In this document: in pieces, positions 17,767 to 41,606 of the stretch
How positions within the stretch are numbered: position 1 is the first letter of the stretch
How the letters are laid out: every line of letters starts with the position of its first letter
Source: Desulfarculaceae bacterium
GTDB taxonomy: Bacteria > Desulfobacterota > Desulfarculia > Desulfarculales > Desulfarculaceae
DNA length: 44,211 nt
Direction: 5' to 3'
NCBI GenBank assembly: GCA_027067385.1
Contig: JAMOVV010000076.1
Coordinates: 1 to 44,211, forward strand
The notes under the pieces: model-generated
The model's database searches: none
Seen by the model: the letters and a program-made list of their open reading frames with translations, nothing else
Told to the model about the DNA's origin: nothing
Position numbers and translations under genes: made by a program

Positions 17767-19437
17767 TTAACCGCCAAGCAGGCTCAGGGCCAGGCTGGGC
17801 AGGCTGTTGGCCTGGGCCAGCATGGACACGGCCGCCTGGGCCAAGATGTTGTTGCGGGTGAACTCGGTCATCTCCAGAGCCACGTCCACGTCGCTGATAC
17901 GACTCTCGGAGGCCTGCAGGTTCTCGGCCTGGATGCTGAGGTTGGTAATGGTGTTTTCCAGGCGGTTCTGCAAGGCGCCGAGAGCGGCACGGGCCTTGTC
18001 CTTGGTGGTGATGGCGCTGTCGATGGCTCCCAAGGCCAACTGGGCGGCCGACTGGGTGTTGATGCGCTGACCGTCCCAAGTGGCGGTCACCGTGGTCCAG
18101 TCGTCGGACGCGTCGGAACCGGAGAACTGCGAGATCACCGCGGAGCCGGCGGAGTTGGTGACCGCGCCGCTGCCCCAAGGCGCGCTGGGCGAACCGGCGT
18201 TGCCGTCCAGGACGGTGCCGCCGCTGGTGGTGGCGGTGAAGACCCGCAGGCGATAGCCGGTCTCGCCGTCGATGCGCAGTTCCCACTCACCGGAGCCGGT
18301 GCTCGTCTCGACCGCCGAGGCGTCGAGCACGCCCACCGCGCCGTTGGCAAAGGCGGTCTCGGTGAACAGGCTGGCGCTGCTGTGAGCCAGGGTGGCGCTG
18401 TTGCCGGCCACGCCGCCGGTGTAAGACGAGAGCTCCAGGGTGTCGGTGCCGCTGACCGCGCCGTAGAAGCCGGTGGAGGCGGCGTTGTTGTTGAGGAAGG
18501 CCGCCACCGAGTTGAGGATGGTGGTCATGGCCTGGCCACTGCCGCCGATACCGATGATCGAGGTGGTGGCGCCCACCGAGAAGCTGTTGGCCGTGGCGGT
18601 GGTGAACTGGAAGACCTCGCTGCCGATGGTGAAGGTAGCGCCGGTGGCGTTGGCCGAGGTGAAGGCCACGTCGAACTGCAGGGTGCCGTTGGCGTGACGG
18701 CCGGCGTCGATCTCGCTCACCAGGCTGTCGATGCTGTCACCGCTGTTGACGTCCACGAAGCCGTAGAAGGACCAGGTGCTGCCCTGGTCGGAGCTGACCT
18801 CGATGCCGAAGTAGCCGGTGGCGCCCAGGTCGACCGAGGAGGAGGTGGCGTCCAAGTTCACGGATTGCCAGTAGTTTTCACCCTCGCCCACCCGCAGGCC
18901 ATCAGAGGTGCTGGCACGCAGGTCGCCGATGGTCATGAAGTAGTAGTCCTCGGCTGCGTCGTTGCCGGTGCCGAAGTGAATCTTCAGACCGCTGCCGTCG
19001 TGGGCGTTGAGCAGGCTGCCGTCGAGCAGCTTGACGCCGTTAAAGTCGGTGGCGTTGGCGATACGGTCGATCTCCGCCGCCATGGCCTGGTACTCCGAGT
19101 TCATGATCTCGCGCTGGGCCGTGGTGTAGGTGCCGGTGGCCGCCTGTTCGGCCAGCTCCTTCATACGGATCAGCTTCTCGTCGATGACGCTCATGGCGCC
19201 CTCAGCCGTCTGGATCATGCTCACCGCGTCGGCCGCGTTGCGTACGCCCTGGTTAAGCACCGCAATGTCGGCTCGCATCTGCTCGCGAATGGCCAGACCG
19301 GCGGCGTCGTCGGCGGCCGAGTTGACGCGCAGGCCCGATGACAAACGCTGCACCGACTTGGACAACCGCCCATAAATCTGGGTCAGGTTCCTGGCCGCGT
19401 TCATGGCCATCATGTTGTGGTTGACAATAAGGCTCAT
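17767..19437 (-). CDS. fliC: Flagellin (copy 1)
   Basis: 556 residues; ATG follows AAGGAGGGG. The D0/D1 N-terminus (MSLIVNHNMMAMNAARNL; LSSGLRVNSAADDAAGLAI) and C-terminus (SRISDVDVALEMTEFTRNNI ... LSLLGG) are canonical for the flagellar filament subunit, which is exported by the flagellar type III system. The middle (about 175-460) is the variable, surface-exposed D2/D3 region, rich in Ser/Thr and thus in possible O-glycosylation sites. It is a close paralogue of the neighbouring flagellin; N- and C-terminal ends are nearly identical. No Cys is seen. A FliA-like promoter lies about 140 nt upstream and a strong terminator follows. Confidence 0.97.
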   Translation of the reverse strand: MSLIVNHNMMAMNAARNLTQIYGRLSKSVQRLSSGLRVNSAADDAAGLAIREQMRADIAVLNQGVRNAADAVSMIQTAEGAMSVIDEKLIRMKELAEQAATGTYTTAQREIMNSEYQAMAAEIDRIANATDFNGVKLLDGSLLNAHDGSGLKIHFGTGNDAAEDYYFMTIGDLRASTSDGLRVGEGENYWQSVNLDATSSSVDLGATGYFGIEVSSDQGSTWSFYGFVDVNSGDSIDSLVSEIDAGRHANGTLQFDVAFTSANATGATFTIGSEVFQFTTATANSFSVGATTSIIGIGGSGQAMTTILNSVAAFLNNNAASTGFYGAVSGTDTLELSSYTGGVAGNSATLAHSSASLFTETAFANGAVGVLDASAVETSTGSGEWELRIDGETGYRLRVFTATTSGGTVLDGNAGSPSAPWGSGAVTNSAGSAVISQFSGSDASDDWTTVTATWDGQRINTQSAAQLALGAIDSAITTKDKARAALGALQNRLENTITNLSIQAENLQASESRISDVDVALEMTEFTRNNILAQAAVSMLAQANSLPSLALSLLGG

Positions 19438-19578
19438 CTTGTCCCCTCCTTGGTTGCCTCGCGCCTGTTCCCTCGGGCGCCGGCCGATGAAAAGATAGGT
19501 TTGGGTTGTAGGTTTGTGGGTTCCCTGAGCTCCTGCCTAAACATGAGGGTCGTCACCCTCAAGGAGCGCTCAATTACT

Positions 19579-19605
19579 TGATCGGCGCGCCCCGGCGCTT
19601 TCTTA
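19579..19605 (-). promoter_or_regulatory. fliCp1: FliA (sigma-28) type promoter of flagellin copy 1
   Basis: Minus strand TAAG-N15-GCCGATCA, against the consensus TAAA-N15-GCCGATAA; two mismatches with exact spacing. Predicted start near 19570, about 130 nt before the ATG. Confidence 0.65.
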
Positions 19606-19617
19606 AATGCCGCCGGC

Positions 19618-19646
19618 AAAAAAAACGGGCGGTGGCAAACCGCCCG
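19618..19646 (-). terminator. Second terminator after flagellin copy 2
   Basis: CGGGCGGT / ACCGCCCG, 8-bp perfect stem, 5-nt loop, followed on the minus strand by eight T. It lies just upstream of the FliA-like promoter of copy 1, insulating the two flagellin units. Confidence 0.85.
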
Positions 19647-19670
19647 GGGCGCCTCGGGCCGGGCGCCGCT

Positions 19671-19705
19671 AAAAAAAGTAGAGGCCCCCGCCGCCGGCGG
19701 GAGCC
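19671..19705 (-). terminator. First terminator after flagellin copy 2
   Basis: A GC-rich stem (GGCTCCCGCC pairing with GGCGGGGGCC, one mismatch, 3-nt loop) followed on the minus strand by TCTACTTTTTTT. It is about 35 nt past the flagellin stop codon. Confidence 0.75.
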
Positions 19706-19738
19706 CCTGTTTGGGGTTTTGGCCTAGGAGCCGCTTGC

Positions 19739-21403
19739 CTAGCCGCCCAGGAGTGAGAGGGCCAGGGAAGGTAGGCTGTTGGCCTGGGCCAGCATGGCCA
19801 CGGCGGCCTGGGCCATTATGTTGTTGCGGGTGAACTCGGTCATCTCCAGGGCCACGTCTACGTCGCTGATGCGACTTTCGGCCGCCTGGAGGTTTTCCGC
19901 TTGGATTCGCTGGTTGGTTATGGTGTTTTCCAGCCGGTTGGCGAAGGCGCCCAGGTTGGCGCGGGCGATATCCTTGCGCACGATGGCGTCATCCACCGCG
20001 GCCAAGGCCAACTGGGCGGCCGACTGGGTATTGATGTTCTGGCCGTCCCAATCGGCGTTGACCTGGGTCCAGTCGTTGACGGCGTCGGAACCGCTGAAGG
20101 CGGCCAGCACCGCGCTGCCGGAGGAGTTGGTAACCGGCAGGCCCCAGGGCGAGGTGGGAGCGCCGCCGGTGGCGTCCAGGATGGCCCCGCCGGCGCTGCT
20201 TTGGCTAAATACCCGCACCATGTTGTCGCCGTAGGCGCTGATGCGCAGTTCCCACTCACCGTTGAGGTTGGTCTCGGCCTCGGCGCTCACCACCCCGGCG
20301 CCGCCGTTGGCAAAGGCGGTCTCGGTGAACAGGCTGGCGCTGCTGTGGGCCAGGGTGGAGGTGTTGGCCGCGCTGCCGCCCTCGTAGGCCATGAGGTTGA
20401 GGGTGTCGCCGCCGCTGACCGCGGCGTAGAAGCCGGTGGAGACGGCGTTGTTGTTAAAGAAGGCCGCCACCGAGTTGAGGATGGTGGTCATGGACTGGCC
20501 GGCGCCGCCGATGCCGATGAGCGACGTGGTGGCGCCCACCGTGAAGGTATTGGTGGAGCTGGCGCTGGTGAACTGGAAAACCTCGCTGCCGATGGTAAAG
20601 GTCGCGCCGTTGGCGTTGGCCGAAGTAAAGGCCACGTCGAACTGCAGGGCGCCGGTGGCGTGACGTCCCGCGTCGATCTCGCTGGCTATCTGGTCGATAC
20701 TGTCGCCGCTGTTGACGTCGACGTAACCATAGATATCCCAGGTCTGGCCGCCGTCGGTGGAAAACTCGATGCCGAAGTAGCCGGTGGCCCCCAGGTCGGC
20801 CTCGCCGCTGGTGGCGTCGAGGTTCTGGCTCTGCCAGTAGTTCTCGCCGGCCCCGATGCGCAGCCCGGTGGCGGTGGAGGCCCGCATGTCGCTCATCTGC
20901 ACGAAGTAGTAGTCCTCGGCCCGGTCGTTACCGGTGCCGAAGTGAATCTTCATGCCGTTGCCGCCATGCATGTAGTTGAAACTGCCGTCGAGCAGCTTCA
21001 CCCCGTTGAAGTCGGTGGCGTTGGCGATACGGTCGATCTCCGCCGCCATGGCCTGGTACTCCGAGTTCATGATCTCGCGCTGGGCCGTGGTGTAGGTGCC
21101 GGTGGCCGCCTGTTCGGCCAGCTCCTTCATGCGGGTGAGCTTCTCGTCGATGACGCTCATGGCGCCCTCGGCGGTTTGAATCATGCTGATGCCGTCGGCC
21201 GCGTTGCGCACGCCTTGGTTGAGCACCGCGATATCAGCCCGCATGAGCTCCCGGATGGCCAGACCGGCGGCGTCGTCGGCGGCCGAGTTGACCCTCAGCC
21301 CCGAAGACAACCTCTGAACCGACTTGGACAACCGCCCATAAATCTGGGTCAGGTTCCTGGCCGCGTTCATGGCCATCATGTTGTGGTTGACAACTAGACT
21401 CAT
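19739..21403 (-). CDS. fliC: Flagellin (copy 2)
   Basis: 554 residues from MSLVVNHNMMAMN; AAGGAGGG precedes the ATG. The track's 683-aa form reads through the promoter and leader and is rejected. Canonical D0/D1 ends as in copy 1 (QRLSSGLRVNSAADDAAGLA; EMTEFTRNNIMAQAAVAM). The paralogues share long stretches in the middle too (GATFTIGSEVFQFT, SSASLFTETAFANG), with scattered substitutions and small indels in the presumed exposed region, consistent with duplication followed by drift. It has the perfect FliA promoter and double terminator, so it is probably the major or equally expressed filament subunit. Confidence 0.97.
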   Translation of the reverse strand: MSLVVNHNMMAMNAARNLTQIYGRLSKSVQRLSSGLRVNSAADDAAGLAIRELMRADIAVLNQGVRNAADGISMIQTAEGAMSVIDEKLTRMKELAEQAATGTYTTAQREIMNSEYQAMAAEIDRIANATDFNGVKLLDGSFNYMHGGNGMKIHFGTGNDRAEDYYFVQMSDMRASTATGLRIGAGENYWQSQNLDATSGEADLGATGYFGIEFSTDGGQTWDIYGYVDVNSGDSIDQIASEIDAGRHATGALQFDVAFTSANANGATFTIGSEVFQFTSASSTNTFTVGATTSLIGIGGAGQSMTTILNSVAAFFNNNAVSTGFYAAVSGGDTLNLMAYEGGSAANTSTLAHSSASLFTETAFANGGAGVVSAEAETNLNGEWELRISAYGDNMVRVFSQSSAGGAILDATGGAPTSPWGLPVTNSSGSAVLAAFSGSDAVNDWTQVNADWDGQNINTQSAAQLALAAVDDAIVRKDIARANLGAFANRLENTITNQRIQAENLQAAESRISDVDVALEMTEFTRNNIMAQAAVAMLAQANSLPSLALSLLGG

Positions 21404-21539
21404 TTTGTCCCTCCTTGGTCCTTGCGCGCCAACATCCATATTGGCGCCGGTACGGAAGTGCTGTCCTGGTGGTCTGAGGCGCTTCCCCTTTCTTGGCCCC
21501 GATAATGCCCGGTGCCAAAGCAGTGAGGTTTCAAGGTTC

Positions 21540-21566
21540 TTATCGGCACCCCGAAATTTGAGTTTA
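21540..21566 (-). promoter_or_regulatory. FliA (sigma-28) promoter of flagellin copy 2
   Basis: Minus strand TAAA-N15-GCCGATAA, a perfect match to the sigma-28 consensus with exact 15-nt spacing. Start predicted near 21531, about 128 nt before the ATG. Confidence 0.9.
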
Positions 21567-21611
21567 GGCTTTTTTGATATTTTTTTGGCCCGTCGCCCAA
21601 CGATCCTGTAT

Positions 21612-21640
21612 TTGACCTCCACCGGCCCGGCCGCTAGGAT
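21612..21640 (+). promoter_or_regulatory. Sigma-70-like promoter of the radical SAM gene
   Basis: TTGACC-N17-TAGGAT on the plus strand. Predicted start near 21647, giving a leader of about 147 nt to the ATG at 21794. Good -35, fair -10, ideal spacing. Confidence 0.5.
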
Positions 21641-21793
21641 ACCCTTGATCGTGGTGGTCGCGGCCGGCTGGGGCGCTGCCACCAAGCACCCGCCTCCGGG
21701 GCCGACCGGCGGCCGCCGGGGCGGGGCCGGCAAGCCTCCGACCAAAGTCACAAACCAGGAAACCCGCCGCGGCCCGGCCCGGGAAAACAATCC

Positions 21794-29491: not shown

Positions 29492-30682
29492 GTGATCATC
29501 GAGGAAATACCGCACCACCTGCGCAACACGGTGACCCACGTGGATTGCCCCATCTACCTGGGGCTCGACGGCGACGTCTGCCGGCCACCGGCACCCCTGG
29601 CCCTGGGCGATACCCTCATGCTCCTGGGCCTGCTGCGTAACCACGGGCGGCCGGTGCGCCTCCACCTGGACCCCGGCCCCCTGGCCGGCCTGGTGCAGGG
29701 CCATCCCATGGTGGCCGAGCTGGCCCCACCGGACACCGCGGCCCCGGCGGCGGTGCGCCAGGTGGCGGTGCGGCGCTTCGGCCGCGACGTGTCCTGGTAC
29801 TCGGAGGTGGTGCAGCGGGTTAAGTTCGGCGTGGCCCCGGTGGACCATATCCGGCTCAACCCCATCGTGGGCCACTCCCTGCACCACAAGCTGGGCTCGC
29901 TAAACGACCGCCCTGGCATCTTCCTGGACCCGGCCCGGCCGGCCGGGCTGCAACACCTGCTGTCGCGGCAAAAGCCCACCGTGGTGGTCTACCCCATCAA
30001 CCCCAGCCGCAGCGATCCCTTTTGGGCGGACCATAAGTGGTGGGCGGCGCTGCTCGCCAACCTGCGGCCCAGCTTCGCCCTGGTGGCCCTGGGCGCGCCC
30101 GACTACGGCGAGATCACCGACCTGGTCGACTGCGCCGTGCCCTCCGACGCCCCGGACTCGCGCCTGGAAGACCTGGCCGCCCTGATCAAGTCGGCCGCCG
30201 GCTTCGTGGGGGTCGACGGCGGACTGAGCCACCTGGCCGCCGCGGTGAATACCAACCTGGTCACCGTGTGGGACGCCATGACCAGCTTCCGCCACTGGGC
30301 CGGCGGCATCGGACACCACATCGTCATGTCCAACCCCCACGGCTTCCGCTATCCCCAAAGCCGCCGCCTGGACCTAGACGACCTTAAAAAGCACTTCCGC
30401 CGCGTGAAGATTCCCGACGGCCGCGGCGGACACCGCCTGGTGGAGCTGCCGCAGGAGGGCTTCAAAGACGCCTGCCGGGAGATTTTCGGCTCGGTGGCCC
30501 AGTACGCCATGAGCGTGCAGGCCCTGCGCGAGGTGCGCGAGGAGCGCGGTTGCGTGGCCGCCTGGATGAACAACCCGGCCCAAAAAGAGCTCTTCTACTC
30601 CCAGAGCCTCGGCCTGGCCTACAAGGCCCTGGCTGGCCAGGCCCCCCGCGGAGCCAACTGGGTAGCCCCCGTAACCCCCTAA
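29492..30682 (+). CDS. GT9-like (heptosyltransferase-fold) glycosyltransferase
   Basis: 396 residues from GTG with GGAG 7 nt upstream. LALGDTLMLLGLLRNHG at the N-terminus, and GFVGVDGGLSHLAAAVNTN (about 240) followed by VTVWDAMTSFRHW, are the GT-B/GT9 signature (GxDxGxxHLAAA). GT9 enzymes usually add heptose to lipopolysaccharide, but family members near fliD/fliS in other bacteria have been linked to flagellar glycosylation. The C-terminal ~90 residues are not recognised. It is 100 nt downstream of fliS and immediately followed by repeat copy C. Donor and acceptor are unknown. Confidence 0.7.
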   Translation: MIIEEIPHHLRNTVTHVDCPIYLGLDGDVCRPPAPLALGDTLMLLGLLRNHGRPVRLHLDPGPLAGLVQGHPMVAELAPPDTAAPAAVRQVAVRRFGRDVSWYSEVVQRVKFGVAPVDHIRLNPIVGHSLHHKLGSLNDRPGIFLDPARPAGLQHLLSRQKPTVVVYPINPSRSDPFWADHKWWAALLANLRPSFALVALGAPDYGEITDLVDCAVPSDAPDSRLEDLAALIKSAAGFVGVDGGLSHLAAAVNTNLVTVWDAMTSFRHWAGGIGHHIVMSNPHGFRYPQSRRLDLDDLKKHFRRVKIPDGRGGHRLVELPQEGFKDACREIFGSVAQYAMSVQALREVREERGCVAAWMNNPAQKELFYSQSLGLAYKALAGQAPRGANWVAPVTP

Positions 30683-30848
30683 CCGCGAGCCGCGGCTCCC
30701 ATATAGGTCCGGTGGCGAATCGTTCCAGGCTCGTCCACCCTTCTGCTCTGCTCGCGGCCGACTTTTATGCCGTGTCGTTTTGGCTTGGAACGCGAATGAT
30801 TGAATGATGCCGGCGGACCTGGCCCCAAGCGCCCCGGCCCATGCACCC
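30683..30848 (+). repeat. Interspersed repeat, copy C
   Basis: Begins directly after the GT9 stop codon with the hairpin CCGCG-AGC-CGCGG, then CTCCCATATAGGTCC, GGTGGCGAA, CAGGCTCGTCC, GACTTTTATGCCGTGTCG, TTTTGGCTT, TTGAATGATG and CCCGGCCCAT, in the same order as copies A and B at 38530 and 38815. It is the most divergent copy and its 3' edge is approximate. Confidence 0.75.
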
Positions 30849-30856
30849 GTGACAAC

Positions 30857-30893
30857 CTAAAACGGGCGTCCGCCTGGTTCAGCGGACGCCCGT
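30857..30893 (-). terminator. Strong stem-loop after the MCP gene
   Basis: Perfect 12-bp stem ACGGGCGTCCGC / GCGGACGCCCGT with an 8-nt loop; TTTTAGG follows on the minus strand. It is 33 nt past the MCP stop and may also end transcription coming from the GT9 gene on the plus strand. Confidence 0.75.
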
Positions 30894-30925
30894 TCATACC
30901 ACCGGGAACTAACCGCCCGGCCGGC

Positions 30926-37955: not shown

Positions 37956-38061
37956 TCCTTCACCGGGCGGCAACCCTTTTGACCACCAGCCGACAGGTGA
38001 CCGCGCCCCCGGTTCATGCTAGGCTAATGGTGCGTTGTCAACCCCCACCGGGAGCAGAAGC

Positions 38062-38523
38062 GTGGAGCTGATCCAGGGCGTCAAGGTAAAAGAACTCAAG
38101 GTAATACCCGATCAACGCGGACGGCTGATGGAGATGCTGCGGTCCGACGACGAGATATTTGCCGGCTTTGGCCAAGTATACCTCACCACCACCCTGCCCG
38201 GCGTGGTCAAGGCCTGGCACCTGCATAAAAAACAGACCGACAACATCGTCTGCGTCGCCGGCATGATCCGCCTCGGCGTCTACGACGACCGCCCCGACTC
38301 CCCCACCAGCGGCCAGGCCAACCAGTTCTTCCTCGGGGTGCACGCCCCCCTGCTGGTGCAGATCGCCCCCGGACTCTACCACGGTTGGAAGTGCATCAGC
38401 CCGGACGAGGCCCTGATCGTCAACACCGTTTCCCGGCCCTACAACCCCGACCAGCCGGATGAATACCGCCTTCCACCCCACGACAGCCACATCCCATGGG
38501 ACTGGTCTACCACCGACTCCTAA
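38062..38523 (+). CDS. dTDP-4-dehydrorhamnose 3,5-epimerase-like cupin
   Basis: 153 residues from GTG (VELIQGVKVKELKVIPD) with GGGAG 7 nt upstream; the track's TTG start adds 9 non-family residues. RGRLMEMLRSDD, the TTTLPGVVKAWHLHKKQTD segment with the catalytic-type His, LVQIAPGLYHGWKC and the end VNTVSRPYNPDQPDEYRLPP follow RmlC. Some relatives are nucleotide-sugar epimerases, others are inactive or isomerases such as FdtA/QdtA. It is far from any rhamnose genes in the window and is followed 6 nt later by repeat copy A. It may serve the glycan pathway of region 1. Confidence 0.75.
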   Translation: MELIQGVKVKELKVIPDQRGRLMEMLRSDDEIFAGFGQVYLTTTLPGVVKAWHLHKKQTDNIVCVAGMIRLGVYDDRPDSPTSGQANQFFLGVHAPLLVQIAPGLYHGWKCISPDEALIVNTVSRPYNPDQPDEYRLPPHDSHIPWDWSTTDS

Positions 38524-38529
38524 TCCCGG

Positions 38530-38814
38530 CCCAGTGCCTGGGTTCCCGTAGTGGGTACGGTGGCGAAACGTTCGCAGGCTCGTCCCTCGCCATCCTTCGC
38601 CAAACCGACTTTTAGGCCGGGTCGGTTTGGCTTTAGAAAAAATCGTCTTTGCGAGGAGCCGGCAGGCGACGCGGCAATCTTCCATTTCCCTCTCTTGGCT
38701 GGCCTTGAAAAATAACCTTGAATTACCAGCCTTCTCACTACCGGTGGCAATTGAATGATGACGGCGGCCCCAGCCTCCAACGTCCCGGCCCATATGGCTG
38801 CGGCGGCACGCCGC
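38530..38814 (+). repeat. Interspersed repeat, copy A (interrupted)
   Basis: Starts with hairpin CCCAG-TGC-CTGGG, 6 nt after the cupin stop codon, continues through CCCGTAGTGGGT, CAGGCTCGTCCCTC, AAACCGAC/GTCGGTTT hairpin, and after a 112-nt insertion resumes with GGCAATTGAATGATGACGG and CAACGTCCCGGCCCATATGG, ending at the hairpin GCGGCGGCACGCCGC (38800-38814). Copy B begins at the next base. Antisense track ORFs of 278 and 150 aa here are shadows of the repeat. Confidence 0.85.
38634..38745. repeat. Element inserted into repeat copy A
   Basis: 112 nt absent from copies B and C. It contains GCGAGGAGCC-GGCAGGC-GACGCGGCAATCT, resembling a dispersed repeat (GCGAGGAGC...GACGCGGCAATC) that I recall from many deltaproteobacterial and other genomes. 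No transposase; flanks show no obvious target duplication. AT-richer than the surroundings. Confidence 0.6.
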
Positions 38815-39012
38815 CCCAATGCTTGGGCTCCCGTAGTGGGTCCAAGTCCACACGCTACAGGCTCGTCCCTCCACCTGCTCCGCTCAAACGTTCTTTTAGG
38901 CCGTGTCGGTTTGGCTTGATCGGCGGCAATTGAATGATAGCGGTGGTCCTTGCCTCCAACGTCCCGGCCCATATGGCTGCGGCGGCACGCCGCGGGTGCG
39001 GCGGCACGCCGC
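38815..39012 (+). repeat. Interspersed repeat, copy B
   Basis: Starts with hairpin CCCAA-TGC-TTGGG, then CTCCCGTAGTGGGTCC, CAGGCTCGTCCCTC, CTTTTAGGCCGTGTCGG, TTTGGCTT, GGCAATTGAATGAT and CAACGTCCCGGCCCATATGG, uninterrupted. The closing hairpin GCGGCGGCACGCCGC is present twice (38979-38993 and 38998-39012). Directly abuts copy A, so A and B are tandem. It ends 33 nt before the ATP-grasp gene. Confidence 0.85.
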
Positions 39013-39912: not shown

Positions 39913-40049
39913 TCTAACCAGCCGTACGGCTACCGGTTATCCCAGCACAACCGACCCGACTTAAAAGTCGGCCCCGCGCCAAGCCGGCCGCAAGACGAGC
40001 CGGGAGCGCTGCGGACTTGGGCCCACCATGGGATCCCAGGCGTTGGGCC

Positions 40050-41606
40050 TTAGTCGGCCAGGTCTTTGAGCCCCTTTTTGTAGATTTTGCCCGAGCCGGT
40101 CTTGGGGATGGCCTCGATGAACTCCACGCTCTTGGGGGCCTTGTAGCGGGCCAGGCGCTCCTTGACAAAATCGATGAGCTCGGCCTCGCCGGCCTGATGC
40201 CCTTCGCGCAGCACCACGAAGGCCTTCACCGCCTCGCCCCACTTGGGGTCGGGCACCCCGATGACCGCGCACTCCAGCACCGCCGGGTGCTCGTAGAGCA
40301 CGTATTCCACCTCGGTGGAATACACGTTCTCGCCGCCGGTGACGATCATGTCCTTTTTGCGGTCCACGATGTTCACGTAGCCCTCGGCGTCGATCACCGC
40401 CAGGTCGCCGGTGTGCAGCCAGCCGTCCACGATGGCCTCGGCCGTGGCCTCGGGGCGGTTCCAGTAGCCGGGGGTGACGATGGGGCCGCGCACGATGATC
40501 TCACCCACCTCCTGGTCGTTGGGCTCCACTTCGCCGCCGTCTTCGCGCACCACCTTCAGCTCCACCCCGATGGAGGCCCGGCCGGTGCGCGAGATAACCT
40601 GCAACAGCTCGTCTTGGGGCAGGTCCTGCATGTGGGCCTTGGGCAGCGAGAAGGTGAGGTAGGGACTGGTCTCGGTCATGCCGTAGGTCTGGATGTACTG
40701 GCAGCCAAAGGTCTCGATGATGCGGCGCACCGTCTGGGGCGCGATGGGCGCGCCGCCGGAGGCGATGAAGCGCAGGCTGGAGTAGTCGAAGTCGCCCACC
40801 CGGGGATGGCTCACCATGAGGGTGAGCATGGTGGGGATGAGGTTGGAGCAAGTCACCGCCTCGTCCTGGATCAGGCGCAGCACCTCGCCGGCGTCAAAGT
40901 AGGGGATAAAGACATGGCGGCCGCCCACCCAGGTGAGGGCGAAGCTGGCCCAGGCGTCGGCCAGGTGGAACAGGGGGGCCACGTGGAACCAGGTGTCGCG
41001 GTCCGAAAGCTGCAGCTCGGCCACCGCGGTGAGGGCGTGGGTGGCCACGTTGCCGTGGGTGAGCATGACTCCCTTGGGCTGGCCGGTGGTGCCGGAGGTG
41101 TAGTAGAGCTGGGCCAGGTCGTCGGCCCCCAACTCGGGGGGCTCCGGCGGCGGCCCGGCGGCGGCTAGGGCCTCTTCGTAGCCCACCGCCGGCGGCCCCT
41201 CGCTTGCCGGCGGACTCTCACCGATCCAGATGATCTGCTTGAGCTTTGGACACTGGGCCACGGCGGCGGCCACCTCGGTTGCGAAATCGCTGTGGGCCAG
41301 CAGCACCATGGCCGCGCTGTCGTTTAGGATAAAAGCCATCTCGCGCGGCGAGAGCCTGAAGTTCACCGGGTTGAGCACCACTCCCAGGCGGGCGCAGGCG
41401 TAGTAGGTCTCCACGAACTGGTGCACGTTGGGGGCCACGATGGCCGCCACCCGGCCGCGCTCCAGGCCGGCTTCGGCCAGGGCCCCGGCCAGGCGCTCGA
41501 TGCGCCGGCCCATCTCGGCATAGGTGTAGCGCACCGGTCCGTCGATGATGGCCTGGCGCCGGGGCCAGAGGGTCAGGGCCTTGTTCAGCGATAGCAGCAG
41601 GTTCAT
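40050..41606 (-). CDS. AMP-forming acyl-CoA ligase
   Basis: 518 residues. Adenylation motifs: LYYTSGTTGQPKGVMLTHGN (P-loop, ~173-192), TYGMTETSP, DGWLHTGDLAVIDAEGY and DRKKDMIVTGGENV, and the C-terminal catalytic Lys in PKTGSGKIYKK. Family members activate fatty, aromatic or dicarboxylic acids to CoA thioesters. It starts 14 nt after the TRAP permease stop, so it probably activates the imported carboxylate. Chain length cannot be told; a medium- or long-chain acid is usual for this sequence style. Confidence 0.92.
   Translation of the reverse strand: MNLLLSLNKALTLWPRRQAIIDGPVRYTYAEMGRRIERLAGALAEAGLERGRVAAIVAPNVHQFVETYYACARLGVVLNPVNFRLSPREMAFILNDSAAMVLLAHSDFATEVAAAVAQCPKLKQIIWIGESPPASEGPPAVGYEEALAAAGPPPEPPELGADDLAQLYYTSGTTGQPKGVMLTHGNVATHALTAVAELQLSDRDTWFHVAPLFHLADAWASFALTWVGGRHVFIPYFDAGEVLRLIQDEAVTCSNLIPTMLTLMVSHPRVGDFDYSSLRFIASGGAPIAPQTVRRIIETFGCQYIQTYGMTETSPYLTFSLPKAHMQDLPQDELLQVISRTGRASIGVELKVVREDGGEVEPNDQEVGEIIVRGPIVTPGYWNRPEATAEAIVDGWLHTGDLAVIDAEGYVNIVDRKKDMIVTGGENVYSTEVEYVLYEHPAVLECAVIGVPDPKWGEAVKAFVVLREGHQAGEAELIDFVKERLARYKAPKSVEFIEAIPKTGSGKIYKKGLKDLAD

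Follow-up and report, generated by a model that had tools for sequence, protein, structure and literature searches.

Few bacterial repeats are as common as REP-type palindromes, and whether they are selfish DNA or functional RNA or DNA signals is debated. Between convergent genes, REPs lie less than 20 bp from both 3' ends (PMC3733652), and REPs located no more than 15 nt from a stop codon have been linked to ribosome stalling (PMC12306157). In the REP orthoswitch, the REPs flanking a RAYT gene change to another variant, which may partly replace the original (PMC3686654). The repeats described here, from a Desulfarculaceae bacterium, belong next to these systems. Our preferred reading, to which we assign a probability of about 0.7, is that they are a clade-specific REP/BIME-like palindromic repeat family with hypervariable stems in which the structure is kept.

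The window, a 44,211-nt stretch (positions 1 to 44,211 of contig JAMOVV010000076.1), contains copies A (38529-38814), B (38815-39012) and C (30683-30845) with shared blocks in constant order, as the original prediction had described, and the exact sequence CAGGCTCGTCC occurs in it three times. The three 5' hairpins that had been named are also present on the plus strand: CCCAG-TGC-CTGGG in copy A (38530-38542), CCCAA-TGC-TTGGG in copy B (38815-38827; profile match 38817-38987) and CCGCG-AGC-CGCGG in copy C (30683-30695; profile match 30686-30844). The reported start close after a stop codon holds for copies C and A: the hairpin of copy C begins directly after the TAA (30680-30682) of ORF 29492-30682 and that of copy A 6 nt after the TAA (38521-38523) of ORF 38035-38523.

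Copy C is a single plus-strand unit between convergent genes, with neither an embedded repeat nor a right-hand hairpin, and a separate inverted repeat lies downstream of it at about 30863-30895. Copy A is a complete two-ended plus-strand unit that is split (profile matches 38532-38681 and 38733-38808) by an embedded CGTC-REP-like repeat, TCGTCTTTGCGAGGAGCC...GGCAATCTTCC, which is visible as a gap in the profile match, common to relatives and located at approximately 38636-38735 on the plus strand. Its right hairpin, GCGGCG-GCA-CGCCGC, is an inverted head on the minus strand (38800-38814; arms-free pattern match 38793-38814). Copy B likewise has an inverted right head (38979-38993, minus strand; arms-free pattern match 38972-38993), and an extra copy of the right hairpin, GCGGCGGCACGCCGC, stands immediately 3' of copy B at approximately 38998-39012 on the minus strand. 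The prediction of three copies missed a fourth, partial copy on the minus strand (39936-40045), recognized from a profile match and its gene context, which lies between convergent genes and 4 nt from the stop of the minus-strand ORF 40050-41606. Elsewhere in the window (17767-21790), two neighbouring minus-strand ORFs of 556 and 683 amino acids share long DNA stretches of 70-84% identity and are in all probability a tandem duplication.

The repeat family is far above chance in the 3.17-Mb draft genome to which the window belongs (a Desulfarculus-related MAG, 86% complete). BLAST with copy A finds 99 matches in this genome, an iterated profile search finds 117 (126 in 48 clusters once more loci are included) and at least 111 heads are recovered with a head covariance model. 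The left unit opens with a 5-6 bp hairpin with a TGC, AGC or GGC loop, followed by two bases and C/G-CCRTA(G)TGGGTCC, then by GGTGGCGA or AAGTCC, then by CAGGCTCGTC and lastly by GACTTTAAGGTC or CGTTCTTTAAGGTC. Left units are arranged in head-to-tail arrays with a period of about 91 nt, the last unit of which runs on into TTGAATGAT...CCCGGCCCATATGG and a hairpin with a GCA, GCC or GCT loop. Over about 40 nt this 3' end repeats the 5' end in inverted form, with a variable hairpin of its own, and closure of an array by the inverted head yields two-ended units of about 180 nt. The 5' hairpin of the original description is thus one end of a full unit that carries an inverted head at the other. The hairpin and CCATA are also found alone, in tandem every 26 nt (contig C27).

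The inverted ends of the 180-nt units are what would be seen if these units were MITEs derived from a conventional DDE transposon bounded by terminal inverted repeats. This explanation is exceedingly improbable, because left halves that lack a right end are often found in tandem, relatives have single-headed units, the termini are hairpins of variable sequence, and no internal transposase was seen in any element at the loci examined.

Many copies, including A, are interrupted by the embedded palindromic repeat, CGTC-A/TTTGCGAGGAGCC...GCAATCT, which also occurs at loci L051-L066. It is often present as an inverted pair with AAATAGACGTCAT ends and is common to several related genera, where it accounts for most of the BLAST matches. 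From its letters it looks like a CGTC-tagged REP. A coding reading of the 3' part of the unit, ATGATGACG..., was rejected by eye because of single-base indels between copies there.

The repeat family is specific to one clade, the Desulfarculaceae-type bacteria. Applied to 63 genomes of the class, the model of the head finds at least 111 matches in the genome of the window, 87 and 73 in two members of one related genus, and 21, 12, 8, 4, 4, 3, 2, 1 and 1 in other members of the same family. One sister-family genome of the order has a weak match, and no match is found in the other 42 genomes, which belong to other families of the class. Public sequences that contain the head sequence are from Desulfarculus sp. 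and a Deltaproteobacteria bacterium; a further public match, L100 from Intestinimonas, falls within a coding gene and was discounted as a chance match, and viral contigs have no match to the head pattern. The body has diverged between the genome of the window and the two related species that have more than 70 copies each. In the related genus, units are single-headed and span about 80 nt: the hairpin leads into a short linker that closes with CATA or a similar sequence, after which come ACGGGTCGG, roughly 30 variable nucleotides and GGCTCCCGTTGA. Loci of this genus, including L207, L191, L194 and L214, also contain a second dispersed palindrome, (GA)CGGGCGGGGATAACCCCCGCCCG, which is often 3' of the elements and at times is followed by a T-run in the manner of a terminator.

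Covariation was assessed at sites located with the stem unspecified, as a guard against circularity; the pair counts of one set (A1) were left out as proof because its sequences had been preselected for pairing. With all arm bases free and an NGC loop required, 134 of 221 head-anchored sites in the genome of the window have Watson-Crick pairs at 6/6 stem positions, versus 1 of 89 in reversed sequence, and 5/6 and 4/6 pairs are found at only 24 and 9 sites. The pairs themselves vary: position 3 is C-G at 64 sites, G-C at 58 and A-T at 37; position 4 is G-C at 97 and C-G at 62; position 5 is C-G at 90 and A-T at 68; and position 6 is G-C at 110 and A-T at 50. The patterns GCNNNNTGCNNNNGC plus head and GCNNNNRGCNNNNGC plus head give 90 and 42 matches in this genome, with complementary arms in nearly all of those listed, and the few matches in other families mostly have unpaired arms. 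When elements of relatives are located by their body only, 127 of 142 have a stem of at least 5 bp and 117 of 142 one of at least 6 bp, compared with about 16% and 5% of shuffles. The loop among 118 hairpins is TGC in 64, AGC in 27 and TGCC in 21, and is never GCA in the sense orientation. The loop is constrained and oriented, and the stem sequence is nearly free. The covarying 5' hairpin first noticed in three copies is therefore found across the genome and in relatives, with pairing kept as the sequence changes.

Only this first hairpin covaries. A GAC...GTC hairpin had been proposed as a further shared block and is not kept, with 33 of 89 copies pairing GAC with GTC, 32 having CGTTC/GTC and 17 GAC/GCC. 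The body without the hairpin, in relatives, folds hardly better than shuffles (z about -0.6), and no Rfam covariance model matches at the gathering or a relaxed threshold. A long closing stem of the whole unit, CCCRTA..TATGG, was rejected as evidence for RNA, since in the genome of the window it equally reflects the homology of the inverted ends; the two inner head pairs modelled in it show no compensatory change. Selection on structure, as RNA or as the end of a mobile DNA, was right in outline as a prediction, and neither outcome named beforehand as a refutation (copies across the genome with unpaired stems, or just three copies and no support from covariation) was seen. The exception is that structure as RNA finds no support over the element as a whole.

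Comparison of two relatives, G006 and G011, shows stem replacement at orthologous sites. Thirteen element pairs have matching upstream flanks, a small set picked for carrying elements, and the stems differ in 10 of the 13, although pairs 11/2 and 63/12 are less clean because the automatic stem finder chose a short or shifted stem in G006. Mean identity is 0.90 over the 120 nt upstream, 0.70 in the hairpin and linker, and 0.78 in the body. Two cases are clearest: pair 37/52 reads CTAG-GCCCAG-TGC-CTGGGC in one genome and CTAG-GCGGCG-AGC-CGCCGC in the other after at least 31 identical letters, and pair 4/67 reads CTAG-GCCCAG-TGC-CTGGGC and CTAA-CGGCG-TGCC-CGCCG with the body in common. Pair 39/92 combines a TAG-to-TAA change of the stop with a change of the outer stem pair from G-C to A-T. 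Stem type predicts the adjoining 2-4 nt (z 8.8-9.5 in relatives, 5.3 in the genome of the window) and is scarcely linked to the body (z -0.5 to 2.5), so that the hairpin and linker behave as an exchangeable cassette. These comparisons draw on incomplete draft genomes, approximate gene calls and paralogous copies that share history. We read these patterns as a cassette of about 20 nt that has probably been swapped between copies, with the mechanism put forward as an inference.

Paired arms could also be produced without selection, by template switching during DNA replication that perfects the palindrome by recopying one arm from the other after each mutation. Such switching is able to create and maintain hairpins (PMC8794818), and the rarity of mismatched intermediates is in keeping with it. 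However, it copies an existing arm and does not put an unrelated stem, drawn from those already present in the genome, in place of both arms; its interstrand form would flip the loop (GCA is the sense loop in 0 of 118), and it leaves the linkage of stem and linker unexplained. We consider it very unlikely as an account of these repeats.

Placement of the repeats relative to genes is strongly biased. On home-made gene calls covering 35 clusters in the genome of the window, 19 of the 35 lie between convergent genes, compared with 17 of 174 other neighbouring pairs (p = 2e-8), and the other 16 are co-directional and none divergent. Median distances are 14.5 nt to 3' ends and 101 nt to 5' ends. 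Left heads and inverted right heads both adjoin the stops of genes running in their own direction, so each convergent gene can have its own sense hairpin. Among relatives, when only stops that close an open frame of 240 nt or more are counted, 36 of 127 hairpins stand at a gap of -2 to 0 to a sense stop, compared with 5 of 579 control positions shifted by 500-900 nt (three-position window). A sense stop lies no more than 40 nt upstream of 77 of the 127, and an antisense stop at the 3' end of 17. The idea of a 3' UTR element is thereby borne out in the post-stop placement and in the sense orientation that dominates in relatives, but not as a strand-fixed feature of the genome of the window, where 6 co-directional clusters are on the same strand as the genes and 10 on the opposite one. 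TAG as a plain insertion target was rejected, as a stop triplet precedes just 3 of 91 hairpins away from ORF ends.

A location at 3' ends and between convergent genes would suit bidirectional intrinsic transcription terminators. The hairpins are not followed by a T-run, though, and a terminator scan finds none in 123 elements; at the L198 locus both species have a separate GC-rich hairpin and T-run downstream of the element, and copy C is followed by its own separate inverted repeat. Intrinsic termination is accordingly a highly improbable function for these hairpins.

The hairpins sit more exactly at the stop codon than would be expected from neutral survival in 3' space, which counts against the preferred reading and suggests an RNA function or a target preference. 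A cis-acting RNA hairpin might be selected at the stop, for termination, ribosome stalling or 3'-end protection, with the spread of copies secondary. The exact anchoring at sense stops, the excess of sense over antisense stops, the heads that adjoin stops of genes in their own direction, the joint change of stop and outer pair in pair 39/92, and the kept loop orientation all speak for it. Against it, G-U-type and A-C-type mismatches are about equal (13 versus 12 in the arms-free scan; 4 versus 5 in left heads alone), giving no sign of an RNA strand, and many copies are in tandem and not after a stop. Furthermore, in the first orthologue examined the element is missing from two further species with the stop codon in the same place, and stepwise compensation would be too slow to account for wholesale stem change inside flanks that are 90% identical. 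Selection may act on RNA, on single-stranded DNA or on both: the equal mismatches favour no RNA strand and the exact stop anchoring favours RNA. On balance we think it unlikely that selection on such an RNA is primary.

A RAYT/Y1 transposase was considered as the driver and rejected. The sole Y1 match in the genome of the window is a degenerate IS200-type fragment with an in-frame stop (L067, C28:26419-26559). Genomes of the family contain 19 Y1 matches, and in the relatives carrying the repeat family, which are draft genomes, a head-type hairpin lies beside none of them. The transposase expected to recognize the ends, searched for as RAYT/Y1, is thus not found beside the repeats in these drafts. 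A GTAG/CGTC tag is absent from the foot of the hairpin, where the preceding bases vary; the CCCGTAG behind the hairpin is set off by the linker, and many copies have CCCATA or GGCATA in its place. With no such tag, and no RAYT gene found flanked by the repeats in these drafts, the family is called REP-like and is not a member of a named REP family.

The explanation that we prefer, a REP/BIME-like family with exchanged stems, takes as its basic unit a roughly 15-nt hairpin (stem of 5-6 bp; oriented xGC or TGCC loop) and a linker of 2-4 nt, which together head a longer conserved body. The family may be mobile. Hairpin cassettes would be copied and exchanged as DNA by a reader of the hairpin's shape and loop and not of its stem sequence; candidate agents are an enzyme acting on single-stranded DNA, or recombination over short tracts between the many copies. 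Copies would survive chiefly in 3' untranslated space. A transcript would carry the hairpin at or just after the stop, where it may act as E. coli REPs do, slowing terminating ribosomes and protecting 3' ends. Tentatively, and against the odds as we see them, a 15-nt hairpin read by shape and loop, and not by stem sequence, may be placed and swapped at stop codons by a non-RAYT enzyme, so that the 3' end keeps a hairpin and not a sequence. Wholesale stem turnover at orthologous stops with pairing and loop kept separates structure from sequence, and provides natural experiments for both the selfish and the functional view of such palindromes, with hairpin exchange in a lineage in which no RAYT is found beside the repeats.

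The sequence family is new-looking, as first supposed, whereas high-copy palindromes at 3' ends and between convergent genes are known from REPs and BIMEs. Like these, the present repeats are short, high-copy extragenic palindromes, near 3' ends and between convergent or co-directional genes, that form direct and inverted mosaics, their palindromic units alternating in orientation around conserved spacers (PMC3733652). REP stems also vary between subfamilies (PMC3733652), and a subset of REPs is likewise no more than 15 nt from stop codons (PMC12306157). Unlike the GTAG/CGTC REPs of Pseudomonas, Stenotrophomonas and E. coli, the family has no foot tag, and no RAYT gene flanked by its hairpins was found in the drafts. 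Compared with REPs it also has much freer stems within one genome, a fixed xGC/TGCC loop, hairpins that abut the stop codon exactly and, behind them, a long conserved body. The embedded CGTC-type REP of copy A is likewise a dispersed palindromic repeat of these genomes, but is unrelated in sequence to the hairpin family into whose copies it is inserted. The 180-nt unit, with two inverted hairpin heads around a short spacer, resembles a REPIN, with the differences that no association with a RAYT gene was found in these draft genomes and that units in relatives are single-headed. The closest parallel to stem replacement is the orthoswitch of fluorescent pseudomonads and stenotrophomonads, in which one hairpin variant is replaced by another in related strains (PMC3686654). 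That switch was inferred for REPs at orthologous RAYT genes (PMC3686654), whereas here the stem changes at single orthologous dispersed copies and the body is kept.
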